Position numbers and translations under genes: made by a program
Part shown: piece by piece, positions 5,045-25,539 of the stretch
Layout: the number at the start of each line of letters is the position of its first letter
Numbering within the stretch: position 1 is the first letter of the stretch
DNA from: a virus
Length of the DNA stretch: 64,000 nucleotides
IMG/VR virus record: IMGVR_UViG_3300042544_000912
Location: 1-64,000 of that record
Strand: one strand, 5' to 3'
The notes under the pieces: generated by a model
What the model was told of the DNA's origin: nothing
The model's database searches: none
Seen by the model: the letters and a program-made list of their open reading frames with translations, nothing else

Positions 5045-5159
5045 GATCCTCAAAGTATTTACATTTGACTTAAATTTTTCTTCTGACAACAAAAACAAAA
5101 AGGAAGAGAAAGATGCTAAAACGAGCGACGATGCTCCTGGCGCTACTAAGTCTAAGTAG
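5022..5159 (+). CDS. Short overlapping ORF, 45 aa
   Basis: An ATG at 5022 has AAAGAGGA about 9 bases upstream and opens a 45-codon frame ending TAG at 5157-5159. It starts inside the preceding gene and ends inside csgF. The product starts MTLNLKIEILKVFTFDLNFS and then becomes strongly charged (DNKNKKEEKDAKTSDD). The good ribosome binding site and otherwise unused 68-base gap favour a real gene. The overlap with csgF keeps confidence modest. Confidence 0.45.
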   Translation: MTLNLKIEILKVFTFDLNFSSDNKNKKEEKDAKTSDDAPGATKSK

Positions 5160-5562: not shown

Positions 5563-5571
5563 GGAGACGTT

Positions 5572-7156: not shown

Positions 7157-8270
7157 TCTTCTACTGATTTTTCTGTTATCGACTCCTGCCTTTGCGGGTA
7201 TTGGGTCGATAACAGATTTCAGAGGCGGTGGTGCCATTAAGCGTGGCGCTAAGACTACAGTAGCATCTAAAGGTGCTGGTGTAGAAAAGATGGACACAAT
7301 TTCTACCAACAGTCAAGGTAGATTTAGGATTACATTCAATGACTCGACTACCGTTAATATTACAGAAAACTCTCGCCTTCTTGTGGATGACTTTGTGTAT
7401 GATGGGGGAGGGAAGACGAAGGGCAAACTTGGACTTCGAGTCGCGCTTGGCACCGTCAGATACGCATCAGGCAAAGTCGCAAAAACAAACCCACGAGGCG
7501 TAAACATTCGCACACCAACTGCTACTATCGCGGTTCGTGGCACAGACTTCGTTATGTCGGTTGATGAAGCAGGTCGTTCTACGGTCGTGCTGGTTCCCGA
7601 ATGTTATAACGAATTAGACATTACAAAGCAGACTGCGGAATGCCCTAATGGTATGATTGATGTTATTACAGCATCTGGCGTAGTTACACTAACACAACCA
7701 TTCCAGGCAACTGTTGTTGAAAATAACTTTGCTCCTCCTGCTCCACCAGTAATCATTAATCCTTTATTGAAGACACTAGATAACAACGTTCAAATTGTTC
7801 CTCTAGAAACAGATGATGGTCAGAGTTTGCTACAACTTGCTAGAGATAGTTTAAAGAAATTCACTAATCCTGCAAAAGCAGCATCGGATGACAATAAGGA
7901 TCCAGATGCAGGAACGAATGATAATACAGAACAAGTTACTGTTGCTATGCTTCGTCAAGCAACACCACAAGAACTTCTAGAAGTTTATGCTGAGTTTAAC
8001 GAAGGTAGTAAACCAGCGGAAACAGTTTATACTAATGTGTCACCGACATTCAAGAAGAACGTTCAGGTCGGTTGGGTATATACTCGACTGTCAGATGACA
8101 GACAACAGGCAGTTACTATCTGGTTGGAGAAATCCAATGAAGCACAAGTTGTATCTGTTCAAAATGGATTAGTTGATGTTTACAACTTTATGGACGATAA
8201 GTGGACAACATCGGGAACTGGTAGACCACAGGGTAATATAACTGTAATACAGGAAACGGGTGCAAGATGA
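7125..8270 (+). CDS. Secreted FecR-domain protein
   Basis: The 381-residue protein starts at ATG 7125, 32 bases before the curlin stop; the frame's earlier start at 7080 would place codons ahead of the signal peptide. The signal is MARLISKLATNLLLIFLLST(PAFA). Residues 30-170 form a FecR domain: ITFNDSTTVNITENSRLLVDD, then GLRVALGTVRYASGK, then NIRTPTATIAVRGTDF. In bacteria this domain binds cell-envelope components, and stand-alone versions are often adjacent to CHASE2 nucleotide cyclases, as here. The C-terminal half (E-L-L-E-V-Y-A-E-F-N and W-V-Y-T-R-L-S-D-D-R-Q-Q-A) is unrecognised. It may be an envelope sensor paired with the cyclase two genes downstream. Confidence 0.8.
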   Translation: MARLISKLATNLLLIFLLSTPAFAGIGSITDFRGGGAIKRGAKTTVASKGAGVEKMDTISTNSQGRFRITFNDSTTVNITENSRLLVDDFVYDGGGKTKGKLGLRVALGTVRYASGKVAKTNPRGVNIRTPTATIAVRGTDFVMSVDEAGRSTVVLVPECYNELDITKQTAECPNGMIDVITASGVVTLTQPFQATVVENNFAPPAPPVIINPLLKTLDNNVQIVPLETDDGQSLLQLARDSLKKFTNPAKAASDDNKDPDAGTNDNTEQVTVAMLRQATPQELLEVYAEFNEGSKPAETVYTNVSPTFKKNVQVGWVYTRLSDDRQQAVTIWLEKSNEAQVVSVQNGLVDVYNFMDDKWTTSGTGRPQGNITVIQETGAR

Positions 8271-9721
8271 AAAAACTAATCGCTCTATTTCTATTATTTT
8301 TCGCAATCCCAGCATTCGCACAAACAAACCTTGGTTTTGAAAACGGAAACTATACCGAATGGACTGTTAGTAATGGTTCAACAACTCTAAGAAACAGTTG
8401 GAGTCCAAACGGTTCAGGTTCTCAGGTTACAACTGGAATGACTAACTATTGTCCGGGTGGTGGTAAGTGTTGGACAGTTACACCATATGGTTCATATATG
8501 CTTGCTGTTCAAGCGGGGGCAGGGTCAGTCAACTTCGACCCTGCCATGACATCGCTTGGTTTACAAGGCTCCGACATTTCTAGTATCAGGTCTTATCTTA
8601 CTTCTCTCGGCGGAAACTCGACACCTACCAATGCATCTTGGGTTAAAAGAACCGTAGCATTGCAGGCAGGTGTCACCTATAGTTTTGCGTGGCAATATCT
8701 CTCGACCGATTACGTGCCATTTAATGATGGTTCAATTATTACTCTTACTGGTGGCCCAGGAACACCCACTGTCAATGGTCTTACACAGAACTATGCGCTA
8801 CTGGGGTTTACTAATCCAGGAACAGGCAATTATTCAACTAACTCATATGGAGCAACCGGTTGGCAAGTCGCTGTGTTTACTGTTCCTGCTGATGGTAACT
8901 ATAATCTAGGATTTGCATCATTCAATCTCGGCGATACTTCATTATCGCCAATTTTGTTTATCGACCAGTTGCAAGGCAGCACCTCGCTGAATGGCACAGC
9001 ATTTACTCCAGTTCAACCGAATGCTGGTTCTTCTGCGCCACCACCTCCTGCGCCTGCCCCGCCTGAACCAACATATCCTCTCGCTTCTATTAGCGCGAAC
9101 CAATCATTGAAGATTAATCAAACGAATGCAATTACGCAAAACTCTATCTATATCAATGTAACTGGTTCTAGCAACTCTGTTTACATCGAACAGTTCTCTA
9201 AACAAAACCAAATCCGTGGTGTGAATGGCGCACAAGCAATGACGATTAATGGTAACAGTAATAGTATCACTATCAATCAGGGAACAGCGACAACACCAAT
9301 TGGTAAGAACTTAGCAGAAGTTTCCGTTACTGGCAATAACAACGTAGTGTCCTTAACACAACAACAAGGCAGCAAATACGCCGAGATAATCACCAATGGT
9401 CTTGGTAATCAAATATCAGCGCAACAAAAAGACGCTGGCGGAAAATCGTTGTTTATCAATGCTTTAGGAAACTCTAATAATATCAGTACCTTACAACAGG
9501 GAACTGCTAACCATTTTCTAGATATCAGCGCACCATTTGGTGGAGTTACTGCATTGGTTACTCAATTGGGAGCATCTGCAAAGCAATTTCAACTTTTACT
9601 AAATAGTCCTGGAATTGGTGTAACTGTCACACAAAATAACTTGACCGCTGCCGACTCTGCGAAAATGGAAATAACATGCACGACTGGACCATGTAATGGA
9701 TACTCTTATACAAAAAACTAA
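8267..9721 (+). CDS. Secreted two-domain protein: beta-sandwich-like N-terminus plus curlin repeats
   Basis: The 484-residue protein has a signal peptide (MKKLIALFLLFFAIPAFAQ). Residues 20-250 open NLGFENGNYTEWTV, a start typical of jelly-roll or PEP-CTERM-type exoproteins. A proline-rich linker (APPPPAPAPPEP, about 266-277) leads to a C-terminal run of curlin-like repeats with N-S-I-Y-I-N-V-T-G-x-x-N-x-V-x-I-x-Q and S-V-T-G-N-N-N-V-V-S-L-T-Q-Q-Q. One reading is a fibre subunit displaying an adhesive or sugar-binding head. It overlaps the FecR gene by four bases (ATGA) and the cyclase by 26 bases, keeping the cassette as one coupled unit. Confidence 0.75.
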   Translation: MKKLIALFLLFFAIPAFAQTNLGFENGNYTEWTVSNGSTTLRNSWSPNGSGSQVTTGMTNYCPGGGKCWTVTPYGSYMLAVQAGAGSVNFDPAMTSLGLQGSDISSIRSYLTSLGGNSTPTNASWVKRTVALQAGVTYSFAWQYLSTDYVPFNDGSIITLTGGPGTPTVNGLTQNYALLGFTNPGTGNYSTNSYGATGWQVAVFTVPADGNYNLGFASFNLGDTSLSPILFIDQLQGSTSLNGTAFTPVQPNAGSSAPPPPAPAPPEPTYPLASISANQSLKINQTNAITQNSIYINVTGSSNSVYIEQFSKQNQIRGVNGAQAMTINGNSNSITINQGTATTPIGKNLAEVSVTGNNNVVSLTQQQGSKYAEIITNGLGNQISAQQKDAGGKSLFINALGNSNNISTLQQGTANHFLDISAPFGGVTALVTQLGASAKQFQLLLNSPGIGVTVTQNNLTAADSAKMEITCTTGPCNGYSYTKN

Positions 9722-11777
9722 AAAAGTTCTACTCTCGCCTTGGTTGGCACTGATTACTTTTGCGGTATTGTTAACAGTAAAACTCGCAAACCCATACTTG
9801 GTTGAATCCACAAGATTGAAGTTTTATGATTATTTGATGCTCGGTTCACCGACGCAATCCGAACAAATTGTAACTGTTAATATTGGGGAGAAAGCAATTG
9901 AAAAATATGGACAGTGGCCTTTCCCTCGCGAAGTCCACGCTAAAATTATTAGCGATATTTATGGCAGAGGGGCTGCTCTTGTTGGTAGCACTATACTTAT
10001 GCCTGAGCCTGATAGGATGGGGACTGACGGAGTTCTTGAAGATACCCTCAGATTACATCCAGTCGTTCTGAGTCAGACGGTAAGTGACTCTTGTTCACGG
10101 GCAAGTAAGACAATTCGGAAGACAGGCGTTGCCGTAATCGGCGATGGAGAAGCAACTGAATTTCTTCCTCAATACCCATGCGTTCTAAGTAATGTCTCAG
10201 GTCTTCAAGAATCCGCAGCCGGTGTTGGGATAACGTCAACCCTACCCGAGCCTGATGGGGTTGTAAGGCGAGTTCCTCTTCTATCCCAATCAGAAGGCGA
10301 ATACTATCCCGCATTTGCTCTAGAGATGCTGCGTGTAGCTGCAGGAGACTCTTCGTATCAAGCCAAGATAAATCAGACTGGGGTTGAAGCATTACGAATT
10401 CCTTCTTTTGAAACTATTAAAACAGATGAATATGGAAGAACGTTCATTAATCCTAACTACCAATTTCCGTCATACGAAATTGGAGAGGATCCTTTACCTG
10501 TCCTGAGTGGTAAAATCGCGATTGTTGGCGTAACTGCTGCTGGTATTTCGAATCCTGTAGCGACTCCATCAGGTGCGCAACATCCCCACGTCCTTCAGGC
10601 GAGTATTCTTGAAACTCTGATAAATGGGGATTCTGTTTCGATTCCGAACTGGTCAGTAATTGCGGATCTTGCGGCTTTTCTTGGTCTTGCTCTGGCATTG
10701 ATTATTCTCTCAAGATTTCGTTTCTCTATAATTTATATCGGCATATTACTAGCTGGATATTTTTATCTACCAGTATATCTGTTCGCAAACAAGGGTATTC
10801 TGTTTGATGTGACATTTAATATCTTTGCAATCGCAATCATCTATATGCATATCTACACGGTAAAGTTTATTAGCGAATTCCTTCAAAAACAACAGATTAA
10901 GAAACAGTTTGGTACCTATTTGAGTCCAGACTTGGTTGCTAGATTACAAAGACAACCGGAACTATTGAAACTTGGTGGAGAATCTCGCGAACTTTCAATT
11001 ATGTTCACCGACGTTCGAGGATTTACTACTATCTCAGAACATTATGGCGCAGATGTCCAAGGTCTGACTTCAATCATGAATCGTTACATGACGGTCATGA
11101 CAAGAGCTATTCTTGAAAATAACGGTACACTGGATAAGTATATTGGTGATGCACAGATGGCATTCTGGAATGCGCCGCTTGATAACAATAAACATGCTTT
11201 GGATGCGGTTCAAACAGCCTTTCAGATGCTAAAAGATTTGGAGACTTTCAATGAAGAAGTTAAAGCAGAAGGCATTCCCGCTTTCGGTATGGGTCTTGGT
11301 ATTAACACTGCCACTGTGGTTGTTGGCAATATGGGCAGCGACCAGCGTTTTGATTATACTTGCTTGGGCGATGGGGTTAATTTGGCTGCTCGTCTCGAAG
11401 GTCAAACCAAGCCTTATGGAGTCAAACTCATCGTCGGACCACAAACGGCCGAATCGGTGGGGGATGTATACCAAGTAGTAGAACTTGACCTGATTGCCGT
11501 TAAGGGTAAAACAGAACCCGTATCTATCTTTACAGTTCTAGAAAAAGACCATCGAGGTCAAGATATCATCGATGTCATGGAAGATCAACACAACAAGTTC
11601 TTATCGCATTACCGGGCTGGAAACTGGAAATCCGCCCGAGTATACGCGACCGATTTACGCGAATACTGGGACGGACAATTAGCCGATTATTATGATATGA
11701 TGATTAGTCGGATCGAAGAGTTTCAGGCTTCGCAACCCAAAGATTGGGACGGAATTTATCGGGCGACTTCGAAGTAA
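9696..11777 (+). CDS. CHASE2-domain class III adenylate cyclase
   Basis: The 693-residue membrane protein starts with one membrane span (13-31), a periplasmic CHASE2 sensor (about 35-315; note INIGEKAIEKYGQWPFPRE-like D/E-x-x-G-x-W-P-W/F-P-R and GTD-type segments), then three spans (about 323-390). The cytoplasmic class III catalytic domain carries FTDVRGFT with metal ligand Asp439, LDKYIGD with Lys481 and second metal Asp485, and DYTCLGDGVNLAARLE with Thr555, Asn562 and Arg566. The Lys/Thr pair reads adenine in CyaC-type enzymes, and the transition-state Asn and Arg are present. The enzyme should therefore make cAMP from ATP, under control of an envelope signal. All catalytic residues I can check are intact. 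A cyclase coupled to a curli cassette is unexpected in a phage. Confidence 0.85.
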   Translation: MDTLIQKTKKVLLSPWLALITFAVLLTVKLANPYLVESTRLKFYDYLMLGSPTQSEQIVTVNIGEKAIEKYGQWPFPREVHAKIISDIYGRGAALVGSTILMPEPDRMGTDGVLEDTLRLHPVVLSQTVSDSCSRASKTIRKTGVAVIGDGEATEFLPQYPCVLSNVSGLQESAAGVGITSTLPEPDGVVRRVPLLSQSEGEYYPAFALEMLRVAAGDSSYQAKINQTGVEALRIPSFETIKTDEYGRTFINPNYQFPSYEIGEDPLPVLSGKIAIVGVTAAGISNPVATPSGAQHPHVLQASILETLINGDSVSIPNWSVIADLAAFLGLALALIILSRFRFSIIYIGILLAGYFYLPVYLFANKGILFDVTFNIFAIAIIYMHIYTVKFISEFLQKQQIKKQFGTYLSPDLVARLQRQPELLKLGGESRELSIMFTDVRGFTTISEHYGADVQGLTSIMNRYMTVMTRAILENNGTLDKYIGDAQMAFWNAPLDNNKHALDAVQTAFQMLKDLETFNEEVKAEGIPAFGMGLGINTATVVVGNMGSDQRFDYTCLGDGVNLAARLEGQTKPYGVKLIVGPQTAESVGDVYQVVELDLIAVKGKTEPVSIFTVLEKDHRGQDIIDVMEDQHNKFLSHYRAGNWKSARVYATDLREYWDGQLADYYDMMISRIEEFQASQPKDWDGIYRATSK

Positions 11778-12368: not shown

Positions 12369-12773
12369 ATGTCGATGCATCTGTTGGGCCCAGCTTATAC
12401 CACTAACAATAACCGTAAGCGCAAATCTAAAGTCCCTGTTACAAAATATTCACAGGACTGGGTAGATTATAATAAGCAGATGAAACGCATTGGTGCAAAG
12501 ACCAAGACGTTTGACGAATATGTTGCATATCGCCAAGGTAAGTCCGGCTTCAAACTAAAGAGTTGTGTGAGAGGTCCAATGGATGCTGCACCATATCGCC
12601 GCGAAGCACCTAAGTATGAGAGCGGAGATGGAATCGGCGTCACGTTTGCTAAGAAGCCCAATGAATATACAGGCACACTAATTAAGGGTATTGCCACGAT
12701 GCATAAATCTAATGCAGTGCCAGTTATCAATCAAGATCAGATGGAAGAAATCTCGAGGATGCGTAGAGGTTGA
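12369..12773 (+). CDS. Conserved small phage protein (MSMHLLGP type)
   Basis: The 134-residue basic protein has a start (MSMHLLGPAYTT) and an end (TLIKGIATMHKSNAVPV) that I recognise from uncharacterised proteins of marine T4-type phages. The middle is Lys/Arg-rich and probably disordered. AAGGAG sits seven bases before the ATG. No enzymatic motif is visible. The next gene starts at a TTG overlapping this stop. Confidence 0.7.
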   Translation: MSMHLLGPAYTTNNNRKRKSKVPVTKYSQDWVDYNKQMKRIGAKTKTFDEYVAYRQGKSGFKLKSCVRGPMDAAPYRREAPKYESGDGIGVTFAKKPNEYTGTLIKGIATMHKSNAVPVINQDQMEEISRMRRG

Positions 12774-14086
12774 GCGTAAAAGAAAAATTAGATTCTGTCG
12801 GACATGGCTTTTGCCCGCAAAAGTGGAGATGGCTTGCGCTTTATCTCCATTCAGGTCATAAGCATAGTTGTCATCATCCACCGCCGATGCATATTGCACT
12901 GGAGGAGATTTCCAAGGATCCTGCCGCGCTGCACAACACTTCACATGAAAAACAACAGCGTAAGACAATGCTGGAGGGCGGAAGACCGACCGAATGTTCA
13001 TACTGCTGGAGTATTGAAGATCTAGATAAAACAAGTGACCGTGTTTATAAGAACACCGATACCATAAACAATTTGTTTGTTTTAGACGATGAAATCGAAA
13101 CACTAAAGAATGTTCCTTGGGATCAAAACGTAAATCCCTATAACATGGAAATTAGTTTCAGTAATGCTTGTAATTTCAAATGCGGATATTGCTGTCCTAC
13201 ATTTTCTTCTCTGTGGGAAGATGAGATTAAACAACATGGCAATTATGATCTGAATTATGACCAATATGGATTGCACAATAAGATTTATTCTGAAAAAGAA
13301 TATAATCCTTATGTTGAAGCATTTTGGAAATGGTGGCCAGATTTGAAGAATGACTTAAAGATTTTTCGCATCACAGGCGGCGAGCCGCTAATGACTACTA
13401 ACACATTCAAGTTATTAGACATGTTAAAAGAAGATGGTAATCCGGAGTTGTTTCTACAGATTAATACCAACCTGGGTGTAACGAATCGAAAAGTCACTGA
13501 CTTCTGCCTTCGCGTTAATGATTTGATTGAAAAGAAGCATATCAAAAATCTTCGGTTGTTTACAAGCCTTGAATGCACGGGTAAGCAAGCAGAATATATG
13601 CGCCGCGGCTTAAACTACGAATTGTTCTTAGAAAATGTAAACACAGTCTTAGAAACAGTCCCTACCGCATATCTAAGTTTCATGACAACGTATAATGTGT
13701 TGACTGTTCCTTATTTCAAAGACTTTCTTCAATTAATAGTTGAATTGCGTGAAAAATGGGGCGAGAGAATTCTTATCGATATTCCTCACCTTAAAGAACC
13801 GCCTCATTGGACAATGAATATTTTACCCCCGGAGTTTGGAACATATATAGATAATGATGTTCAATACATGAAGCAAAACGGTTTCAGTGATATTGAAATC
13901 GGCAAAATGGAACGTGTCAGAGAATATTTCTATAACGATACGCATAATATCACCGACGAATACCGGTTGAATGGTAGAAAAGATTTTGCGAAGTTTTTTC
14001 CGGAATATGACCGTAGAAGTAACAGTAGTTTAATAGAAACATTTCCTGAATTTTCAGAATTTTTAGAATGGTGTAAAACATTATGA
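12770..14086 (+). CDS. Radical SAM protein 1 of 6
   Basis: The 438-residue protein has the radical SAM cluster motif CNFKCGYC (Cys134, 138, 141) and the SAM-binding ITGGEPL segment. Before the barrel is an N-terminal Cys/His module: FCPQKW, then S-C-H-H-P (Cys34), then ECSYCW (Cys76, Cys79), which could bind an auxiliary cluster. The start is TTG at 12770 overlapping the previous stop, because the first in-frame ATG would remove part of the conserved N-terminal module and the sister proteins share that module fully. Family knowledge predicts cleavage of SAM to a 5'-deoxyadenosyl radical. The substrate is unknown. Confidence 0.8.
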   Translation: MSVKEKLDSVGHGFCPQKWRWLALYLHSGHKHSCHHPPPMHIALEEISKDPAALHNTSHEKQQRKTMLEGGRPTECSYCWSIEDLDKTSDRVYKNTDTINNLFVLDDEIETLKNVPWDQNVNPYNMEISFSNACNFKCGYCCPTFSSLWEDEIKQHGNYDLNYDQYGLHNKIYSEKEYNPYVEAFWKWWPDLKNDLKIFRITGGEPLMTTNTFKLLDMLKEDGNPELFLQINTNLGVTNRKVTDFCLRVNDLIEKKHIKNLRLFTSLECTGKQAEYMRRGLNYELFLENVNTVLETVPTAYLSFMTTYNVLTVPYFKDFLQLIVELREKWGERILIDIPHLKEPPHWTMNILPPEFGTYIDNDVQYMKQNGFSDIEIGKMERVREYFYNDTHNITDEYRLNGRKDFAKFFPEYDRRSNSSLIETFPEFSEFLEWCKTL

Positions 14087-15507
14087 ATGACGATATCCAC
14101 ACTGAGCATAACTTGGATGTTCATTCTGTTGATTCTTATTGGAATTTCCTTAAAGAGAAACGCGAAGACATCAATTCTGTTAGTCCAACGTTTTGTGCGG
14201 CCAAGTGGAAGCAATCGACTATTCTTCTGTATAGCGGAGAAACGCATAGTTGCCACCATCCCTCACGACATAAAATTACTTTAGATGATATTAAAGATAA
14301 TCCACGGGGTATTCACAACACGGCAGTAAAAAAAGCAGCCCGTATTGATATGCTCAATGGTATACAAACTAAAGAATGTGATTATTGCTGGAAAATTGAG
14401 AACCTGAATAAAGATTGGATGAGTGATAGGATATACAAGTCCACATATTCATGGGCTCTCCCGCATATCGATGAAATTGTAAAATCTGGTGATGGAGCAA
14501 ATATCGACCCGTCATATTTAGAAGTTGCCTTTGAATCTACCTGTAATTTTAAATGCGTATACTGTAGCCCAGAAAGTTCTTCAAGATGGCAAGAAGAAAT
14601 CGAAACTCACGGTCCAATCGAACTGGAAGATTTCAAATTACATGATCTTGGATGGTTGAAGGAAGTTGGAAAACTTCCAATTCATCGTAAAGAACAAAAT
14701 CCATATATTGATGCTTTTTGGAAGTGGTGGCCTGACCTCTATCCCAATCTACATACGTTTAGAATAACTGGTGGTGAACCCCTACTCAGTAAACACACTT
14801 GGCGAGTCCTTGACTATATTGCCGAAAATCCAAATCCTAATTTAACACTTGCGATCAATACCAATCTCAATGTTCCTGATAAATTAGTTGAGAAACTAGT
14901 AGAATATATTAATAGAATCTCTGGTAATATTAAATTATTTGATGTATATACTTCTCTTGAAAGCACAGGTAAACAGGCTGAGTATTCTAGATTTGGTATG
15001 CAATTTGATGAGTTTAAGAAAAACTGTGAATATGTGTTAGACAATACGCCCGACACCACTAGACTACATTACATGACTACTATAAATCTGACTAGTGCAC
15101 CGACTCTTCTTGAATACCTGAAATATATTAGAGAAATGAGATTACGATATTTCAGTAAATTACATGAATTTAGAGTAAGAACCCATCTTTCATATCTTCG
15201 TTGGCCTAGAATGTTATGTTTGACGTTATTATCAGATGAAGATAAACAGAAGTTTGGAGACTTATGGATAGAATACGTCGAGCAGCATAAACTAACACAA
15301 CTGAAATCTACCGAAGAAACATTTTATTTAGAAGAAGTGGATCAGGTAAGAAGATTGGTTGACTATATGAGATCAACCAAAGAACCACAATCTTTATATA
15401 AAGACTTTAGAAACTATACTCGAAGTCTGGACAAACGTAGAAAAACCTCATTTGTTGAGACGTTTCCAGAACTTGCATATTTAATGGACGATGATTACTA
15501 TGGATGA
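14083..15507 (+). CDS. Radical SAM protein 2 of 6
   Basis: The 474-residue protein is the closest relative of its neighbours on either side. It has FCAAKW, S-C-H-H-P (Cys57), ECDYCW (Cys99, Cys102), the cluster motif CNFKCVYC (Cys154, 158, 161), an FWKWWPD element and ITGGEPL. It carries about 20 extra residues before the FCxxKW motif. The ATG overlaps the previous stop as ATGA. The shared FWKWWP and TSLESTGKQAEY segments show that proteins 1-3 arose by tandem duplication and then diverged. Retained motifs suggest all three are active. Confidence 0.8.
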   Translation: MNDDIHTEHNLDVHSVDSYWNFLKEKREDINSVSPTFCAAKWKQSTILLYSGETHSCHHPSRHKITLDDIKDNPRGIHNTAVKKAARIDMLNGIQTKECDYCWKIENLNKDWMSDRIYKSTYSWALPHIDEIVKSGDGANIDPSYLEVAFESTCNFKCVYCSPESSSRWQEEIETHGPIELEDFKLHDLGWLKEVGKLPIHRKEQNPYIDAFWKWWPDLYPNLHTFRITGGEPLLSKHTWRVLDYIAENPNPNLTLAINTNLNVPDKLVEKLVEYINRISGNIKLFDVYTSLESTGKQAEYSRFGMQFDEFKKNCEYVLDNTPDTTRLHYMTTINLTSAPTLLEYLKYIREMRLRYFSKLHEFRVRTHLSYLRWPRMLCLTLLSDEDKQKFGDLWIEYVEQHKLTQLKSTEETFYLEEVDQVRRLVDYMRSTKEPQSLYKDFRNYTRSLDKRRKTSFVETFPELAYLMDDDYYG

Positions 15508-16819
15508 CCCCATGTTAAATTTTAGAAACGCCGTTTTGGATTCTAAATCAAAATCTTTCTGTGGTGCCAAATGGGGAAATAGTACCCTTTGGTTAAATAG
15601 TGGAGAAACCAGTAGTTGTCACCTGCCTCCTGTCCATAAGATTGATGCTGAACAGATTGCAATCGATCCTTCTAAGTTGCACAATACAGATCATAAATTT
15701 AAAATGCGCAAGTTGATGCAGGACGGTATTAAACCCTCCGAATGTGATTATTGTTGGAAAATTGAAAGTATGGGCGATACTTTTATTTCCGACCGCGTCT
15801 TTAAGTCTCTACAGTTTACAAATGATGAGATGCAGGAATGGTTCGAACTTCCGGCAGATACTAGAATTATTCCTCCTACCCTGGAAGTAATGTTCGACCG
15901 TACCTGCAATTTTGCATGTAGTTACTGTAATGCAAATTTCAGTACCACATGGGAACGTGATATCAAGACGCACGGATATTATGAACTGGAAACTAGAGGT
16001 GGTGGTGCATTTAAACATGATGGTTCATATAACAATACGCACGAAAAAACTTCTAATCCGTATATCTCAGCATTCTGGGAATGGTGGCCAGAACTTAGTC
16101 AAAAACTTCGGGTTCTCCGCATAACAGGCGGAGAACCATTAATGAATACCGATGTTTGGAAGCTGATTGATATGTTTGCTGAAAACAAATATACTTTCGA
16201 GCTTGGCATCAATACAAATTTGGGCGCCAAGAAATCGATTATTGATAGGCTCATCAAAAAGTCATTTGATATCGAAAAGCTGTGTCTCTTTACAAGTATG
16301 GAAACAACAGGCGCCCAAGCGGAATATATTAGAGATGGGTTAGATTATGACGCATGGTGTAACAACGTAGAACGTATTTTGGAAGAATCTAATGTTAAAC
16401 GTATCGTTGTGATGATGACTATTAATGCCTTGTGTCTGTTCAATATTACCGAATTTATGGATCAGGTGCAACAATGGAAGCGCAAATACAATAACAGAAT
16501 TTCGATGAGCATAAATTTTCTTAGATTCCCTGCATTTCAGAGTTTGACTGTTCTTCCTGATAACATTAGAACTGCGGCACATGAGAAGTTGCTTGTGTGG
16601 TATGAAAAAAATAAAAACGAATTAATAGGCAATGAAAAGAGTGACGTAGAACGGTTAATATCTTATGTAAGTGTAATCGAAACTCCTCACGCATATGACG
16701 ATGACTTGGAATTGAATCGTAAAGATTTTAAGAGTTTTTATTCCCAATACAGTCATCGCAGAAATAAAACACTAGATGTATTTCCAGGAGAACTGCTAGA
16801 ATGGTACAACACATTATGA
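15500..16819 (+). CDS. Radical SAM protein 3 of 6
   Basis: The protein is about 439 residues long with FCGAKW, S-S-C-H-L-P, ECDYCW (Cys82, Cys85), CNFACSYC (Cys136, 140, 143), FWEWWPE and ITGGEPL. I prefer ATG 15500 (overlapping the previous stop by eight bases) to ATG 15491; neither has a strong ribosome binding site. It differs from proteins 1 and 2 in having L for the second His of the SCHHP motif. It ends in the same D-V-F-P-G-E-L-L-E-W type tail, where proteins 1 and 2 read E-T-F-P-E. Confidence 0.75.
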   Translation: MDDPMLNFRNAVLDSKSKSFCGAKWGNSTLWLNSGETSSCHLPPVHKIDAEQIAIDPSKLHNTDHKFKMRKLMQDGIKPSECDYCWKIESMGDTFISDRVFKSLQFTNDEMQEWFELPADTRIIPPTLEVMFDRTCNFACSYCNANFSTTWERDIKTHGYYELETRGGGAFKHDGSYNNTHEKTSNPYISAFWEWWPELSQKLRVLRITGGEPLMNTDVWKLIDMFAENKYTFELGINTNLGAKKSIIDRLIKKSFDIEKLCLFTSMETTGAQAEYIRDGLDYDAWCNNVERILEESNVKRIVVMMTINALCLFNITEFMDQVQQWKRKYNNRISMSINFLRFPAFQSLTVLPDNIRTAAHEKLLVWYEKNKNELIGNEKSDVERLISYVSVIETPHAYDDDLELNRKDFKSFYSQYSHRRNKTLDVFPGELLEWYNTL

Positions 16820-17994
16820 GAAATGATGGCTATTGTGCGCTACCATTTAATCATATGAATCTACATCCAAACGGAAACGTTTCTATATGTTGTGTGTCTA
16901 AAATGGGAGGACCAGATAGCGGTTTTGCCAAAGATGAAAATGGTAAGCTATTAAATCTACGAACCCATACGATAAATGAAATTTTTGATGCTCCGTCTGT
17001 TAACAAGATCCGCGAACAGATGTTAAATGGGGAATTTCCATCTGCTTGTGAGGGCTGCTATAAAATAGAACAGTATGGTGGAAAATCTCGAAGAACCACA
17101 GAAAATACTCGTTGGCCAAAACGCGAAACGCCTGGATTAGAATTTATCGATTTGCGATTGAGTAATCTATGTAATCTGAAATGTCTAATGTGTTATCCAG
17201 ATTCCAGCTCGGCTTTGGTAACAGATTATAACGAGTGGGCAGACAGTCTTCCGTTCGTGACAAAGAATAATACAGATTTTGATAATTTCCAGTGGTTTAA
17301 CGAAGACATCATCGATCAATTGAAAGAACATAAAGATACTTTGAAATATCTTTATATCAATGGCGGCGAACCTTTCATTATGCCAATGCAGTGGAAAATG
17401 TTGGAGAAATTAATTGAGTGGGATGTTGCTAAAAATATTCACATTAGCTATAATACAAATTGCACAACCTATAGCGATTCTTTTAGCGAATATTGGAAAC
17501 ATTTTAAAGTGGTCACGTTGGGATGCAGTGTAGACGCCACAGGAGATAAGAATTCTTTTATTCGATATCCGTCAAAGTGGGATGTCGCAAATGAAAATAT
17601 TCGCAAATTGTTAGAGAATCCATATATTCATGGCATGAATATTACTTGTAGTATTCAGTGGTTAAATGCACCCTTTTTACCTGAATTTTATGATTGGGCA
17701 GTGCCATTGACCAAACTTAAACCGCATACTACAATCAATCAGAATTTTATAGTATTCCCCGATTACTTGTCGTTAAATTGTGCGTCTAAACAATTTAAGC
17801 AGGACTTATCTACGGTTTATGAGGAATCTCAATACAGAGATTATATTTTGACTGAAACAATGAAATCATATCTTAGATTTTCTCCAGATTCATCTGAGCA
17901 ATGGAATAATGGTAATAAATACCTCGACGTAGTGCAGTTGAGCCGAAAAATGGGCCCATGGAAAGATATATTCGATTATGACTATAGATTCTAA
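16816..17994 (+). CDS. Radical SAM protein 4 of 6 (twitch/SPASM-like type)
   Basis: The 392-residue protein has a different N-terminal module: YCALPFNHMNLHPNG, then SICCVSK, then ACEGCYKIE (Cys78, Cys81). It is followed by the radical SAM motif CNLKCLMC (Cys119, 123, 126) and INGGEPF. This is the layout of twitch-type radical SAM proteins reported from marine phages. The start is the ATG at 16816 in an ATGA overlap, not 16801. Its N-terminal P-F-x-x-M-x-x-x-P-N-G-x-x-x-x-C-C pattern is the one used by SPASM-type auxiliary cluster domains, but placed ahead of the barrel. Confidence 0.75.
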   Translation: MRNDGYCALPFNHMNLHPNGNVSICCVSKMGGPDSGFAKDENGKLLNLRTHTINEIFDAPSVNKIREQMLNGEFPSACEGCYKIEQYGGKSRRTTENTRWPKRETPGLEFIDLRLSNLCNLKCLMCYPDSSSALVTDYNEWADSLPFVTKNNTDFDNFQWFNEDIIDQLKEHKDTLKYLYINGGEPFIMPMQWKMLEKLIEWDVAKNIHISYNTNCTTYSDSFSEYWKHFKVVTLGCSVDATGDKNSFIRYPSKWDVANENIRKLLENPYIHGMNITCSIQWLNAPFLPEFYDWAVPLTKLKPHTTINQNFIVFPDYLSLNCASKQFKQDLSTVYEESQYRDYILTETMKSYLRFSPDSSEQWNNGNKYLDVVQLSRKMGPWKDIFDYDYRF

Positions 17995-19246
17995 TAATAA
18001 TACAATTTGTCCCTATCCTTTTGTGCATTCCTATATAGGTTCGCAGTATGAAAGAAAATTGTGTTGTATTTCCGACGACATTGATGGGTTACAAAAAACA
18101 ACTGTAGACCAGTTTTGGAATTCTGATTTTATGCGTGAAACTCGCAAGAAAATGGTATCTGGTGAAAAAGTAGACCATTGCAATAGATGTTATTATTTTG
18201 AGAGTATTGATGTTCCATCTTTGCGCGAAGAAAGTTGCCGACATTACGATGAAAAAGATTTGTTCGAGGGGTATAATCCTGATACTGGAGAGATGAGTGT
18301 AAACCCGACCTATTTTGACCATAGAACAATTTATTGCAATTTACAGTGCGTGAGTTGTGGATATGTTTATAGTTCTACCCACATGTCACTTTATGAAAAG
18401 ATGTGGAATAAAACTATACAATTTAAAGTCGACCGAGAGTTTGAAGAAAATACCGCGAAAGAAATTTTGGATTCTATCAAAAATAAAGAATGTAGGAATA
18501 TTTACTGGGCGGGCGGCGAGCCTATGATGTCAAAAGTCCATTGGATGGTTGTCGAATTGATGGAACAACTATCCTCGGACCCGGAGTATTCTGATTACAT
18601 TCGAGGATTAGGTGTCCATTATAATACAAATCTTACTAAGTTATCTTGGAATGGTAAAAATATTCCAGATATGTTGGAATTCTATCAACCATCGATTCAG
18701 GCAAGCATCGACGGCACACATGAAACCTTTGAGTATTGTCGTGATGGTGGTAGATGGGATTCTGTATCAACCAATTGGGACGAGTATTATGAGAAGCTGA
18801 ATAAGAATCAACAATTTGGTATTGCTTCTGTTCTCTCGTCTCCGGTATTAATGGACATCGACCGCTGGTTTGATTTTTTTGAACAATATAATGTAAAAAT
18901 CTATAATCACAAATATATTTGTCATCATGAACAATATCCACATTCTGCGCAAGGATTTTTAGATATTAGACTTTTTCCACAGCATATTTTTGATAAAGTG
19001 GTAAATCATGCTATTAGTAGATTTGAAAACAGCAATATGATTGGCGCAGATAAAAGTATTGATATTATTAAATCCTATATTCAAGAAAAAGAAATGTATA
19101 AAGAATTTTTTGAAGATATGGAATTGTTGAAGGAAATCAAGAAAACTAATGAATATAGAGATAAGTTCAACAAGGGTGGTAAAACATATCCTGAGTTACT
19201 ACAAATAATTAATCCTGAAGCATATGAGTGGTATTTGTCCATATGA
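17978..19246 (+). CDS. Radical SAM protein 5 of 6
   Basis: The 422-residue protein has CPYPFVHSYIGS, KLCCISDD, HCNRCYYFES (Cys68, Cys71) and the cluster motif CNLQCVSC (Cys120, 124, 127), then WAGGEPM. It is most like protein 4. The cluster motif is preceded by RTIY rather than the usual LRLSN, so this member is the most diverged around the active site. It overlaps both neighbours (17 bases upstream, ATGA downstream). Confidence 0.75.
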   Translation: MTIDSNNNTICPYPFVHSYIGSQYERKLCCISDDIDGLQKTTVDQFWNSDFMRETRKKMVSGEKVDHCNRCYYFESIDVPSLREESCRHYDEKDLFEGYNPDTGEMSVNPTYFDHRTIYCNLQCVSCGYVYSSTHMSLYEKMWNKTIQFKVDREFEENTAKEILDSIKNKECRNIYWAGGEPMMSKVHWMVVELMEQLSSDPEYSDYIRGLGVHYNTNLTKLSWNGKNIPDMLEFYQPSIQASIDGTHETFEYCRDGGRWDSVSTNWDEYYEKLNKNQQFGIASVLSSPVLMDIDRWFDFFEQYNVKIYNHKYICHHEQYPHSAQGFLDIRLFPQHIFDKVVNHAISRFENSNMIGADKSIDIIKSYIQEKEMYKEFFEDMELLKEIKKTNEYRDKFNKGGKTYPELLQIINPEAYEWYLSI

Positions 19247-20388
19247 GCGAAACCAAAATTTATTGTCCGTCTATGTGGAAATCAGTGCATGTTGATACTG
19301 ATGGCTATGTAACTCCATGCTGTCTTTTTATTCATAAAGAGGACAAAAAAAGCAAACTCGTTAATATAGAACATGCCGAGAGAGTTTTGCAAGAAGAATT
19401 CCAGGAGTACCGAGATCAACTCTCAGAGGGAATCTGGCCCAGCGGCTGCAATCAATGTAAATTCGCAGAAGAAGAAGGTAGATCGAGTAAACGTCAACAA
19501 GATTTGTGGGTTATTGACGGCGGATTGATGAAAACTAATCCAGAAGAAGTTTCTCTGGAATATCTGCAATTAAAAACTGGAAGATTGTGTAATCTTCGGT
19601 GCACTATATGCACTCCAGCTTGTTCAACTGCAATCTCGACGGAATTGTTACGCAAGGGTGAATTGGACCGAGAAACATATGACCGTCTCAACGAAGAAAT
19701 TGCTTGGTCGTATAATCTTGAACAATACAAAAAATTAAATCCCGGAAAAAACGGATACTTCAGGATTGATATTGCCGGCGGTGAACCGCTTATGAATAAA
19801 ACGCATTTTGAGTGGTTAGATCAAATCCCAAATCCAGAAAATACACAATTGTTATATAATACCAATGGTACGCAACGGCCGTCTCGTGAAGAAATTGAAA
19901 TCTGGAAAAAGTTTAGAGGAATATGGCTGTCATTCAGTATCGATTCTTACGGTGAAAAGTTTGAACAATTGAGAGTTGGTGCGAAGTGGAATCAAGTTCT
20001 TGACAATTTAAAATATTGTCAGGAAGAAATTATAGCAAAAGAATTTGATACTAACACTTCTAATTGCTCCATTGTCATGACAGTTAGTAAATTTAATGTT
20101 CGAGATGCGATTACACTCTATCAAATAATTAATCAGTATGTAACATTTACACATAAAGAACCGTTAAATTTTAATTATCTATATTATCCTGAACAAATGG
20201 CTTGTCACAACATGCCTAAGAAAGAGTTGGAGGATGTAATAGCTTTATATGACCAACAAATTCCTATGTTACTAGATGGTAGTAAAATGAAGAAACAATG
20301 TATAGATTTGCGTAATAGTTTAGCATCATTTCTAGAGGATAAGCAAATTGAGAATCCTAGACCTATTTCTATTGATCACAGGAAATAA
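19243..20388 (+). CDS. Radical SAM protein 6 of 6
   Basis: The 381-residue protein has YCPSMW, TPCCLFIH, GCNQCKFAEEEGRSSKR (Cys69, Cys72), CNLRCTIC (Cys116, 120, 123) and IAGGEPL. The start is the ATG of an ATGA overlap at 19243; a GTG at 19228 is in frame but less likely. The E-E-G-R-S-S-K-R segment after the N-terminal Cys pair is the E-x-G-x-S-x-R pattern of twitch-type radical SAM proteins. It closes the six-gene run and is followed after two bases by the SGNH-like gene. Confidence 0.75.
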   Translation: MSETKIYCPSMWKSVHVDTDGYVTPCCLFIHKEDKKSKLVNIEHAERVLQEEFQEYRDQLSEGIWPSGCNQCKFAEEEGRSSKRQQDLWVIDGGLMKTNPEEVSLEYLQLKTGRLCNLRCTICTPACSTAISTELLRKGELDRETYDRLNEEIAWSYNLEQYKKLNPGKNGYFRIDIAGGEPLMNKTHFEWLDQIPNPENTQLLYNTNGTQRPSREEIEIWKKFRGIWLSFSIDSYGEKFEQLRVGAKWNQVLDNLKYCQEEIIAKEFDTNTSNCSIVMTVSKFNVRDAITLYQIINQYVTFTHKEPLNFNYLYYPEQMACHNMPKKELEDVIALYDQQIPMLLDGSKMKKQCIDLRNSLASFLEDKQIENPRPISIDHRK

Positions 20389-20390
20389 TT

Positions 20391-21221
20391 ATGGACGTTA
20401 GCAATAAAAAACGAATGATATTTTTTGGCTGTTCCTTTACTTCTGGTCATGAACTCATGGATCACGATTTTCTTGGAATATCTTTTGATGAATGCAATAA
20501 ACTAAAAGAACAACATCTTCTTGAAAAGAAGTCGGTTGGTAAATTTGATACCTATATAAAAAATGTTGCAAATATTGATAATGCCCAGTATAATGATATG
20601 TCATCTAAAAAGTCTTATGGCGCTAAATTAGCAAATAAACTCGAACTTGAACATGTCAATTATGCCGAACCGGGCTTATCTATGGAACATTCATTCTTAA
20701 AACTAATTCATGCATTTCATTCCGGTGAAATAAATCCTTCCACAGATTTAATTTTTTTTGGACTTACTACCCCGCATAGATATATGTTGTTTACTGAGCA
20801 TGGTATACCCATAACTAAAGTTATGAGCGATCAAAATTATGCACCAGAGGATCTTCATTACAACGATTATAAGATAATGCAATCATACTATTTTTCTTTG
20901 GAAAATTTTAAAAATTTTTGCCTAACCAATTCATTTGATTTTATTTTGCAACCGGTCGTCAATAAAGGACTATTATTAACAGGAATGGTAGAGCCAAAAT
21001 ATGAGATGTTTATGGATATTCAACGTGATTGGAAATATCTGCCAATGTTTACTAAAATGTTAGAAAATAGTCTAGAATATTGTATCGATCAAGATGTAAC
21101 TCTGGTTTCAAGATATAACCCGAAAATACATGGTGTTTGTGGCTTCAAACATCCTACTGAAATAGCCCACGAATACTTTGCGGAGGAACTTTATGCTAAA
21201 ATTACTAATAAACAAGATTAA
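20391..21221 (+). CDS. SGNH/GDSL hydrolase-like protein
   Basis: The 276-residue protein has a block I-like FFGCSFTSG near its start, where the Ser in G-C-S-F-T would be the nucleophile. A G-L-S-M-E-H-S-F segment follows, and a block V-like K-H-P-T-E-I-A-H-E-Y-F-A-E-E-L lies near the C-terminus, where a catalytic His is expected. SGNH enzymes remove or transfer acyl groups on sugars. Phage versions of this G-C-S-F-T type are common and mostly uncharacterised. It lies between the radical SAM array and the carbamoyltransferase, suggesting a shared biosynthetic product. Confidence 0.6.
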   Translation: MDVSNKKRMIFFGCSFTSGHELMDHDFLGISFDECNKLKEQHLLEKKSVGKFDTYIKNVANIDNAQYNDMSSKKSYGAKLANKLELEHVNYAEPGLSMEHSFLKLIHAFHSGEINPSTDLIFFGLTTPHRYMLFTEHGIPITKVMSDQNYAPEDLHYNDYKIMQSYYFSLENFKNFCLTNSFDFILQPVVNKGLLLTGMVEPKYEMFMDIQRDWKYLPMFTKMLENSLEYCIDQDVTLVSRYNPKIHGVCGFKHPTEIAHEYFAEELYAKITNKQD

Positions 21222-21297
21222 ATCATATTTTGCTAAAAGAAAGTATCTAAAACGAATTAAAGAATTGCGTAAACTGGATCCGTTCATTTATGATTGA
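21193..21297 (+). CDS. Conserved 34-residue basic peptide ending DPFIYD
   Basis: This gene is too short for standard gene calling. The ATG at 21193 has an excellent GGAGG six bases upstream and opens 34 codons ending TGA at 21295-21297. The peptide is Lys/Arg-rich (K-I-K-S-Y-F-A-K-R-K-Y-L-K-R-I-K-E-L-R-K) and ends L-D-P-F-I-Y-D. It starts inside the SGNH-like gene and overlaps the carbamoyltransferase start. I recall similar short phage proteins ending in D-P-F-I-Y. It could be a regulatory or structural peptide, or conceivably a substrate for nearby enzymes, but no leader/core structure is evident. Confidence 0.6.
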   Translation: MLKLLINKIKSYFAKRKYLKRIKELRKLDPFIYD

Positions 21298-22723
21298 ATG
21301 GGGTATATCTGCCGCAGCACATGATGCGTCTTTGACTGTTGTTTCTGGTAATGAAATTTTGTTCGCCTCTCATGCGGAAAGATATTCTGGCATCAAGAAT
21401 GATAAGGACTTAAATGCTGATTTAATTCACGCGGCATTAAAATTTGGTAAGCCAGAAAAGATACACTGGTACGAAAAACCAAAACTTAGAGCGATGAGAC
21501 GATTGCTATCTGGTCAGGGCCTCGTTCGATTTAGTGTTAGACAGTATCTTGCGGCATTCGGTCTAAAAGATATTCCTGTTGAATTTGCATATCATCATGA
21601 ATCCCATGCCGCAGCTGGCTTTTACACTTCGCCTTATGAGAATGCGACCGCTCTCGTTATTGACGCTATCGGTGAATTTGATACCGCGTCTATCTGGAAA
21701 TGTTCCGGTGAGAACCTGAAAAAGAAATGGTCGATGGACTATCCCAAGTCTTTGGGACTGTTCTACTCTGCCATGACAGACCGAGTTGGTCTTAAAGCAA
21801 ATGAAGATGAATATATCTTAATGGGAATGGTAGCATATGGCGAACCCGAAAAATATTACGACGAAGTTAGAAATCTTTGGGAATCTGAAAACCTTCATCG
21901 CGGATGTCGTTGGTGGCGTAATGATGACTTTGATTTGGACCACTATAGTGTTGCCGCAGCAACGCAAAAAGTATATGAAGAAGAATTTGAAAAACTACTG
22001 ATACGCGCAAAGATGAAAGACACCTTCCAAGACAATCTTGTTCTTATGGGTGGATGTGCGTTAAACTGTAGTGCAAATCATATTGCACGAAAGTATTTTG
22101 ATAATGTCTGGATTATGCCTAATCCTGGAGATTCGGGTAGTTCTTTAGGTGCTATTGCAGCTAACAACAGACAGAAGTTTAACTGGAAGGGCCCATATCT
22201 AGGCGCAGATATGGGAGGAGAGTTTCCTGTAGAAAAACTCTTGACAGAATTGCGTAAGACGGGTATAGTGGGTGTAGCAAATGGGCAAGCAGAATTTGGG
22301 CCAAGAGCATTAGGCAATCGCAGTCTTCTAGCAGACCCACGAGGTCATGATATAAAGGACAGAGTAAATGAAATCAAGCAACGACAGAAGTTTCGTCCGT
22401 TCGCTCCAGTCATTCTGGCAGAACATGCGAGAGACTACTTTGAAATGTCATGGGAAGACTCCCCTTATATGCAATATACTTCAAGATGTAAATATCCTGA
22501 TCGGTTTCCTGCTATTGTTCATGCTGATGGGACATCTCGTGTCCAGACTGTGACAAAAGAGCAACATTCTGGACTATATGAACTTATTAGCAGATGGTAT
22601 GAAGAAACTGGATGTCCAATGCTATTGAATACGAGTCTCAATATCAAGGGTATGCCCATGGTGAATAACTTCAAAGATGCAGACGATTTTGAGGCCAAAT
22701 ATGGCGTGAAAGTCTTTTCGTAA
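21290..22723 (+). CDS. NodU/CmcH-type carbamoyltransferase
   Basis: The 477-residue protein has the two-domain layout of the family. The N-terminal ASKHA-like half carries GISAAAHDASLTVV and YHHESHAAAGFY; the C-terminal YrdC-like half carries FGPRALGNRSLLADP, QKFRPFAPVIL and LNTSLNIKGMPMV. Family members transfer carbamoyl from carbamoyl phosphate, via carbamoyl-AMP, to hydroxyl groups of sugars, antibiotics or, in some phages, hydroxymethylcytosine in DNA. The gene is common in T4-type marine phages. Given the TAGT-like glycosyltransferase at 2.6 kb, DNA decoration is one option; finishing a radical SAM-made product is another. ATG 21290 overlaps the 34-residue gene. Confidence 0.85.
   Translation: MIEWGISAAAHDASLTVVSGNEILFASHAERYSGIKNDKDLNADLIHAALKFGKPEKIHWYEKPKLRAMRRLLSGQGLVRFSVRQYLAAFGLKDIPVEFAYHHESHAAAGFYTSPYENATALVIDAIGEFDTASIWKCSGENLKKKWSMDYPKSLGLFYSAMTDRVGLKANEDEYILMGMVAYGEPEKYYDEVRNLWESENLHRGCRWWRNDDFDLDHYSVAAATQKVYEEEFEKLLIRAKMKDTFQDNLVLMGGCALNCSANHIARKYFDNVWIMPNPGDSGSSLGAIAANNRQKFNWKGPYLGADMGGEFPVEKLLTELRKTGIVGVANGQAEFGPRALGNRSLLADPRGHDIKDRVNEIKQRQKFRPFAPVILAEHARDYFEMSWEDSPYMQYTSRCKYPDRFPAIVHADGTSRVQTVTKEQHSGLYELISRWYEETGCPMLLNTSLNIKGMPMVNNFKDADDFEAKYGVKVFS
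22241..22269 (+). promoter_or_regulatory. Internal sigma70-like promoter candidate
   Basis: TTGACA at 22241-22246 and TATAGT at 22264-22269 with a 17-base spacer lie inside the carbamoyltransferase gene. It could serve the small genes from 22735 onward. Inside coding sequence, so chance is possible. Confidence 0.3.
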
Positions 22724-24480: not shown

Positions 24481-25149
24481 ATGTTTAAAACGATCTATGA
24501 TTATACCGATTTCGCCCAAGATGAAACAAGAGAAGATGGTAGCAGAGTTTACGTCAATGCCTTAGGTGTTGGATATCCCTCTGCTACCACTGTTCTCGGT
24601 GTTCTGAATAAAGATGGCATCAACAAGTGGCGTGAGCGCGTTGGCGAAGAAGAAGCCAATCGCATTTCTAAGCAAGCTACTACTCGTGGAACTAAAATCC
24701 ACACACTTACCGAATCATATCTAAAGAATGAAGAAGTCGATTTCGATAGCGTGAAAGCGTCCTTGTTAGACAAGGAAATGTTCAATAAGTTTAAATCAAT
24801 TCTTGACCCTATCGATAACATTCACTGCCAAGAACTGGCGCTATACAGCGACTTCTTGCGTATGGCTGGTCGTGTTGACTGTATCGGAGAATACAACGGT
24901 ATTCGTGCCGTAATCGACTTTAAGACTTCTAATCGGCCCAAGAAGAAGGAACATATCAGTTCCTACTTTATGCAGACCGCTGCATATGCAATCATGTATG
25001 AAGAACGAACTGGTATTCCTGTTCCCTTTCTCGTTATCTTGATTGCCGTAGATGGTGATGAGCCTCAGGTGTTCGTAGAAAAACGAGACAATTGGGCAAA
25101 AAAATTGCTTGAAGCCCGTGATTTGTTTGAAAAAGGTATTGACAAATAA
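24481..25149 (+). CDS. PD-(D/E)XK exonuclease (Cas4/MGME1-like)
   Basis: The 222-residue protein has the RecB-type nuclease core. A-T-T-R-G-T-K-I-H carries the conserved His, GRVDCIGEYNG supplies the first metal-binding Asp, and AVIDFKTS gives the D-x-K pair. A Q-T-A-A-Y-A helix, the Q-x-x-x-Y motif of RecB-like nucleases, follows. These enzymes trim DNA ends in recombination-dependent replication or recycle host DNA. A ribosome binding site (AAGAG) is close to the ATG. The last codons contain the -35 box of the tmRNA promoter. Confidence 0.8.
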   Translation: MFKTIYDYTDFAQDETREDGSRVYVNALGVGYPSATTVLGVLNKDGINKWRERVGEEEANRISKQATTRGTKIHTLTESYLKNEEVDFDSVKASLLDKEMFNKFKSILDPIDNIHCQELALYSDFLRMAGRVDCIGEYNGIRAVIDFKTSNRPKKKEHISSYFMQTAAYAIMYEERTGIPVPFLVILIAVDGDEPQVFVEKRDNWAKKLLEARDLFEKGIDK

Positions 25150-25167
25150 GACTTAAGGTCTTATATA
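25139..25167 (+). promoter_or_regulatory. sigma70-like promoter of the tmRNA gene
   Basis: TTGACA at 25139-25144 overlaps the end of the exonuclease gene; TATATA at 25162-25167 follows a 17-base spacer. Transcription would begin near 25174, just ahead of the acceptor piece. Confidence 0.6.
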
Positions 25168-25175
25168 TAGATTAT

Positions 25176-25490
25176 CAGTTGTTGACAGGCAACAATAAAG
25201 GCGGAAAGACGCGGGTGCAACTCCCGCCACCTCCACCATAGATACATCAAGGTCCGACCCGAAAGGGGTGCCTACTAAAGTGAGGGATGATGGTGTATCT
25301 ATGATGGGGGTGAACTAGGATCGATTTTCGTGTAATAGGAAGTCCGAGACTGATTGCTTGGCAAAGTGCCACTAAAAGTAAATGCAAACGATAACGTTGC
25401 CTTTGCAGGATATGCGCTAGCCGCATAATCTCATTGGGTTTTTGATAGTTTTCCCTCGAAACAGAATAAAACTATCACCTGTTCTTCTTA
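25176..25490 (+). ncRNA. ssrA: Circularly permuted two-piece tmRNA
   Basis: The acceptor half lies upstream of the coding half, so the gene is permuted. Acceptor piece: a T arm GCGGG-TGCAACT-CCCGC (25211-25227) leads to CACCTCC-A-CCA ending at 25238, with CCA encoded. Coding piece: GGGGGTG at 25306-25312 pairs with CACCTCC (25228-25234) over seven pairs with one G-U. UUUUCGU after the D-like loop pairs with GCGGAAA before the T arm to form helix P2. The tag frame is at 25384-25428. A pseudoknot follows: TGATAGTTTT (25443-25452) with AAAACTATCA (25468-25477), and AACAG (25460-25464) with CTGTT (25479-25483). Bases 25239-25305 form a hairpin (TAGATACATCA / TGGTGTATCTA) that would be excised. 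Outer ends are approximate. Such split tmRNAs are normal in alphaproteobacteria. Confidence 0.9.
25384..25428 (+). other. tmRNA proteolysis tag ANDNVAFAGYALAA
   Basis: The resume codon GCA at 25384 opens 14 codons, ending TAA at 25426-25428. The ALAA end is the usual ClpXP degron, and ANDN is the usual alphaproteobacterial start. Stalled ribosomes would add this tag to truncated proteins, using the phage-made RNA with host SmpB. Confidence 0.85.
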
Positions 25491-25539
25491 TACGATGAAA
25501 TGCGTGGAAGTAGAACTTAGAAATGCTAAATAGTTATAT

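Follow-up and report, generated by a model that had tools for sequence, protein, structure and literature searches.

An array of six N_Twi radical SAM genes in a T4-like phage, with a possible role in surface-glycan tailoring

The first 64 kb of the 130,898-base IMG/VR virus record IMGVR_UViG_3300042544_000912 (the window of this analysis) contain an array of six radical SAM (S-adenosylmethionine) genes, R1 to R6, which is a real and well-conserved feature and belongs to a catalogued but functionally uncharacterised family. Radical SAM enzymes carry out chemistry that is open to few other enzymes. Six consecutive genes of this kind had been proposed in a preliminary description of the DNA, and the open reading frames (ORFs) were confirmed at the same coordinates, 12770-20388 (Table 1): they follow each other head to tail with overlaps of 4-19 bases, contain no internal stops and code for proteins of 386-474 aa. 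All six match the NCBIfam model NF033640 (N_Twi_rSAM, twitch domain-containing radical SAM protein) over nearly their full length, with scores of 219-315 bits that exceed its curated cut-off of 170, and no seventh gene of the family was found in the 130.9 kb record. The C-x3-C-x2-C motif and the GGEP segment, both claimed earlier for every member, are present in the six proteins, and five of them also pass the Pfam cut-off of PF04055, R3 remaining below it (25.1 versus 29.5). The earlier interpretation would have been refuted by membership of a known family whose role is defined and unrelated; the family is indeed known, and no role has been defined for it, since the model names no reaction. 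At the family level the array proteins do not differ from NF033640, while the array itself, the pairing of its two subfamilies and the coupling to a neighbouring SGNH-like gene lie outside the model.

Pseudogenes are ruled out, as the ORFs lack stops, all motifs are retained and the ratio of non-synonymous to synonymous substitution (dN/dS) against L008, the nearest relative, is 0.02-0.06 for R1-R4 (R5 and R6 are saturated in dS). A chimeric assembly is also ruled out: the search for the same run in other phages recovered relatives from other metagenomes with the same six-gene order, several of them with the same flanks.

Table 1. Coordinates of the array genes and of the genes beside them, in positions of the window
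Feature	Coordinates	Strand	Evidence
phrog_27048 protein	12369..12773	+	Upstream, overlaps R1; adjoins R1-type genes in relatives
R1, N_Twi_rSAM clade A (FCxxKW, SCH, ECxYCW)	12770..14086	+	NF033640 300.5 bits; AlphaFold2 pLDDT 95.8, pTM 0.92
R2, N_Twi_rSAM clade A, nearest kin Bdellovibrionota	14083..15507	+	NF033640 315.1 bits; tree
R3, N_Twi_rSAM clade A, group of phages and Bdellovibrionota	15491..16819	+	NF033640 275.2 bits; tree
R4, N_Twi_rSAM clade B (CC, CxxCY)	16801..17994	+	NF033640 314.5 bits; Pfam SPASM residues 12-87; AlphaFold2 pLDDT 92.9, pTM 0.90
R5, N_Twi_rSAM clade B, exchangeable member	17978..19246	+	NF033640 236.9 bits; 54% identity in nearest relative
R6, N_Twi_rSAM clade B	19228..20388	+	NF033640 218.8 bits; Pfam SPASM residues 13-78
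SGNH-like putative acyl hydrolase/transferase (GCSFT block, C-terminal HP...H)	20391..21221	+	Motifs; tied to clade B genes across phages
O-carbamoyltransferase, NodU/TobZ/GdmN type	21290..22723	+	PF16861 2.7e-53, PF02543 5.4e-37

The division into two subfamilies, proteins R1-R3 (clade A) and R4-R6 (clade B), is backed by pairwise identity, which is 35-39% among R1-R3 and 20-28% for all other pairs, and by a tree of 139 proteins whose two halves contain R1-R3 and R4-R6, respectively. R1 clusters with proteins of other phages, the sister proteins of R2 are from Bdellovibrionota (support 95), and R3 belongs to a mixed group with members from phages and Bdellovibrionota (support 100). The placement of some long branches, including those of R6 and R4, is uncertain. 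Each array member has closer relatives in other phages or in Bdellovibrionota than among the other members of the array. The tree and the low pairwise identity rule out a recent tandem duplication, and the earlier idea that all motifs had been retained after duplication was not borne out. From the placement of R1-R3, the array is instead best described as an assembly of old lineages, A and B being, on the same phylogenetic grounds, two old subfamilies. A gene exchange would have been added at R5, which is only 54% identical to its counterpart in L008 (L008 10577-11866), while R1-R4 are 96-98% identical (R1, 98%), so that R5 appears to have been exchanged. The testable members, R1-R4, are under purifying selection; members of the array are thus kept and yet exchangeable.

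The N-terminal cysteine module noticed earlier in all six proteins is real and corresponds to a twitch motif placed before the barrel; the twitch type, previously limited to the last three proteins, extends to the whole array. The auxiliary-cluster motif of SPASM/twitch proteins, CX9-15GX4C...CX2C (PMC6231123), is normally located C-terminal to the barrel (PMC9012708), whereas in the N_Twi_rSAM family the twitch is N-terminal. In the array the motif lies at residues 11-102 with the barrel downstream, and the C-terminal twitch of the strict BtrN type was not found. Four cysteines ahead of CxxxCxxC are invariant in the six-way alignment (C15, C34, C76 and C79 in R1, with the spacing C15-x13-G29-x4-C34, then C76-x2-C79); R5 has the four cysteines and lacks the motif glycine. 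A module in all six proteins was obtained in 0 of 2000 shuffles of their N-termini. Alignments of 78 clade A and 53 clade B sequences show no variation at the four cysteines either, and the full motif, CX9-18GX4C...CX2C, is present in 78/78 and 42/53 of the sequences, respectively. BtrN, a twitch radical SAM 2-deoxy-scyllo-inosamine dehydrogenase, has the CX9-15GX4C...CX2C motif in common with the array proteins, and positions 6-79 of the clade B profile align with its C-terminal twitch region (E 5e-5), but the solved BtrN chain has about 270 aa and carries the twitch at its C-terminus. The cysteine module is therefore a domain-permuted twitch, an architecture to which the NCBIfam name already refers and hence not new. 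From these motifs, two iron-sulfur clusters are expected in each protein: a SAM-cleaving [4Fe-4S] cluster at CxxxCxxC and an auxiliary one at the four twitch cysteines. Seven array proteins of other loci (L021 13704-14924, L024 8574-9860 and L033 12667-13926 among them) reach only 42-48 bits against the family and have neither CxxxCxxC nor GGE; these are possible degenerate or non-catalytic partners.

A scan of IMG/VR with R1 alone detected 499 coding sites of relatives, and the 80 loci analysed contain 1 to 8 members each. Genes passing NF033640 reach 14 in one viral record (G017), and another (G012) has eight within 13.5 kb. In Bdellovibrionota, genome G003 contains 14 in a stretch of 33 kb and genome G005 seven in 9.7 kb; in the former, on contig G003:C192 (L173, L174), a beta-hydroxylase gene and other uncharacterised genes are found between the N_Twi_rSAM genes. 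Near-whole-length matches of R1 among predicted viral proteins come nearly all from uncultured phages, and no close isolate relatives were detected among 50,697 phage records, which gave distant matches only, nearly all of them Vibrio phages. The array is therefore typical of uncultivated aquatic phages and not unique, contrary to what had been supposed, with up to 8 genes per array and up to 14 per record in many viral contigs. Neither are phage arrays wholly new, since "radical SAM cassettes" of pelagimyophages have already been mentioned (PMC7029224). These occur in the same phage type (with curli and cyclase genes) and presumably contain the same kind of genes, but they are mentioned in passing and lie between the VrlC and gp14 genes, whereas the array described here follows the curli/cyclase cassette, and its family, subfamilies and partners are defined. 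No paper describing tandem radical SAM arrays in phages was found in the open-access literature, and the arrangement and its partner genes look undescribed.

Array composition shows regularities with respect to clade. Both clades are present in 59 of the 60 non-redundant viral loci with at least three members, and 46 of the 58 loci with one or two members contain clade A only. These loci were mostly reached through clade A, a bias that is removed by a scan anchored on clade B: here a clade A gene lies within 8 kb in 30/32 loci, at least three members are present in 29/32 and an SGNH-like gene in 16/32. Clade B genes are thus almost never found without a nearby clade A gene, and clade A genes are often alone.

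Downstream of R6, the SGNH-like protein has S15, G124, H254 and H260 invariant in 12 relatives, in which its GCSFT and HP...H blocks are invariant or nearly so; it has no Pfam hit and its best PDB match is weak (E 0.097). A single-sequence scan with it gave 3 matches. Among SGNH-anchored loci, N_Twi genes are present in 24/28 and at least three of them in 21/28, the comparators being loci anchored on the carbamoyltransferase (18/31) and on a putative glycosyltransferase (GT) family (32/36). An N_Twi gene overlaps or abuts (within 4 bases) 35 of 71 SGNH copies, and N_Twi genes within 20 bases of SGNH are 29 of clade B versus 6 of clade A. The next gene codes for a carbamoyltransferase with both Carbam_trans domains and a RALGNRS motif, closest to GdmN (PDB), novobiocin carbamoyltransferase and TobZ (PDB), which act on small molecules and sugars. 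The phrog_27048 protein upstream of R1 is probably not specific to the module.

In other phages, clade A genes adjoin 40 of 77 copies of the putative GT family, which has a DGDN motif, and group-7 GT/LamG proteins (19 contacts for 42 copies), as well as LamG-like proteins and sugar epimerases. Genes for RmlD, RmlC, GDP-mannose dehydratase, UDP-glucose dehydrogenase, NTP transferases, DegT and carbamoyltransferase occur within 5 kb of array relatives, and the Bdellovibrionota homologues adjoin GT group 1 genes and ABC-2 exporters. Host-recognition islands of pelagimyophages also unite GTs and radical SAM cassettes (PMC7029224). Further support for a glycan comes from the match of clade B to the twitch region of BtrN, an aminocyclitol dehydrogenase, from BlsE, a cytosylglucuronate decarboxylase, as the best fold match of R1 (E 1.3e-4), and from BlsE and DesII among the fold matches of R4. 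A pathway for a modified sugar, lipid or peptide had been suggested before; the carbohydrate-type neighbours agree with it, and, to judge solely from gene neighbourhood, a glycan is the best of these substrate classes. Because carbohydrate genes dominate, the cellular homologues lie beside GTs and ABC-2 exporters and the carbamoyltransferase has such kin, the preferred reading is that the six enzymes, the SGNH-like acyl enzyme and the O-carbamoyltransferase may well form a radical tailoring module for a surface glycan, although we would stop short of calling this probable.

According to this proposal, the locus would work as one operon-like module of these eight proteins. In analogy to BtrN, the 5'-deoxyadenosyl radical would abstract a substrate hydrogen and the auxiliary cluster would take up the electron, the outcome at unreactive carbons being a dehydrogenation, an epimerisation or the formation of a bond. 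Clade A could perform the basic step, since it is often found alone beside glycosyltransferase genes in other phages, and the additional steps would fall to clade B, which is nearly always accompanied by A and tied to the SGNH gene. The most likely substrate would belong to a surface polysaccharide (on the host, the O-chain or capsule; on the virion, a glycan) and be a sugar or nucleotide-sugar. It would then be acylated or deacylated and carbamoylated, possibly altering its recognition by other phages or by host defences.

Several observations weigh against this proposal. No glycosyltransferase gene lies beside the array in this phage, the nearest recognisable ones being at 1505-3536, and the GT family that neighbours array genes elsewhere (A6) has neither Pfam nor credible PDB support, a PDB profile search included. 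The SGNH assignment was made by motifs only. Anchors and profiles were taken from array-bearing loci, which biases the association counts upward, and a biochemical datum was found for no member. Moreover, clade B folds are nearer to peptide-modifying SPASM enzymes than to sugar enzymes, and PqqD, a peptide-binding chaperone, is enriched near cellular homologues.

Both of the last points bear on a serious rival, which we nevertheless consider rather unlikely: that the substrate of the array is a peptide (of the ribosomally synthesised and post-translationally modified (RiPP) kind) or a protein (of the virion, for example a tail fibre) and that the SGNH and carbamoyl enzymes work on what the array produces. 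It is serious because of the resemblance of clade B to peptide maturases and the presence of PqqD near bacterial N_Twi genes. The AlphaFold2 models of R1 and R4 match radical SAM structures, all PDB matches being distant (TM-scores of about 0.5 or less). The best Foldseek matches of R4 are the SPASM/twitch peptide maturases CteB and anSME (E 1e-8 to 1e-7), with SkfB also among the best and BlsE and DesII appearing as well; TM-scores to the three maturases are only 0.3-0.45, their domain order differs from that of the array proteins, and neither a RiPP recognition element nor a precursor was found here. In six bacterial genomes, 4 of the 8 places with an N_Twi gene above the cut-off have PqqD at a distance of no more than 8 kb, which is unlikely to be due to chance, as an estimated 2% of each genome is that close to such a gene; a YcaO gene is near one homologue. 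Array genes in other phages are often downstream of tail-fibre-like genes, and short LamG-like proteins adjoin clade A genes. However, PqqD was matched neither in this phage record (G000) nor in G003, the largest Bdellovibrionota array genome, the overlapping ORFs leave no space for a precursor gene within the array, and neighbourhoods are dominated by carbohydrate genes.

The fold matches of R1 are weaker, with BlsE, NifB and viperin at E values of about 1e-4. Those to BlsE and viperin, together with weak hits to pVip profiles and with the many divergent tailoring enzymes, reminiscent of natural-product pathways, could suggest that the array makes a small molecule (a viperin-like nucleotide, a cofactor or a signalling compound) for host takeover or competition. 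This is improbable: the scores obtained with viperin models, 17-41 bits where NCBIfam requires 180, are explained by the shared barrel, and no exporter or scaffold-making enzyme was recognised beside the phage array. Viperin defence as such was rejected, the best NCBIfam viperin score being 31.5 bits and the 180-bit cut-off of NF038283 being missed.

The viperin folds among the R1 matches would also fit the synthesis of a hypermodified DNA base decorated by the carbamoyltransferase and the TAGT-like glycosyltransferase (2583-3536), a TET-associated type present in the window. Phage carbamoyltransferases can form 5-carbamoyloxymethylcytosine in DNA (PMC8670742), and the enzyme concerned belongs to the same superfamily as the 21290-22723 protein (25% identity). 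Nevertheless, this is the most improbable of the readings considered. TET/JBP, C5-methylase and thymidylate-synthase/dCMP-hydroxymethylase were unmatched in the 130.9 kb record (which may be incomplete), only ThyX being present; a TET control search matched nowhere, so that the absence of TET counts for less. TET/5-hydroxymethylcytosine (5hmC) modification was rejected on the lack of these starter enzymes, none of which is common to array-bearing phages. The carbamoyltransferase is of the canonical type, and the apparently highlighted residues differ, G-N-R (342-344) here versus C-N-T in the 5hmC enzyme, in positions mapped by spacing and not by alignment to TobZ. Finally, carbamoyltransferases of unmodified contigs adjoined GT group 1 genes (PMC8670742), and the Bdellovibrionota homologues are chromosomal.

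The virus is a T4-like phage with relatives among the pelagi- and methylophilales-myophages, and its terminase is about 50% identical to those of cyanophages. The array sits between the carbamoyltransferase gene and a curli-type cassette at 5113-11777 (CsgF, a probable CsgG and a curlin repeat protein) that ends in a CHASE2/cyclase gene; this curli/cyclase cassette is matched in Pelagibacter phage HTVC008M, and the cyclase also in Methylophilales phages such as Melnitz. The 1505-3536 region codes for a GT group 1-like protein followed by the TET-associated-type glycosyltransferase (PF20691, E 1.4e-43), no TET gene being found. A permuted transfer-messenger RNA gene of alphaproteobacterial type, with the tag ANDNVAFAGYALAA, is located at 25146-25519. 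On the minus strand, from 62214 to the end of the window and on to 65194 of the record, four tandem paralogues (24-36% identical) lie near tail-fibre-like genes; they are possibly glycosyltransferase-like, and neither of the two tested reached a Pfam cut-off.

The N_Twi_rSAM proteins constitute a very numerous viral family, whose genes form modular arrays in which the same partners recur. If the surface-glycan reading is true, viruses would diversify surface sugars by radical chemistry, with relevance to superinfection exclusion and to the host range of viruses among abundant aquatic bacteria. In a wider and unlikely version of this proposal, the arrays would be a general tailoring system encoded by viruses and predators, in which a clade A core enzyme would establish a surface polymer and exchangeable clade B enzymes, together with an SGNH partner, would add variable modifications to it. 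Gene swapping would then alter the chemical coat in the way that shuffling of tail fibres alters receptor binding.

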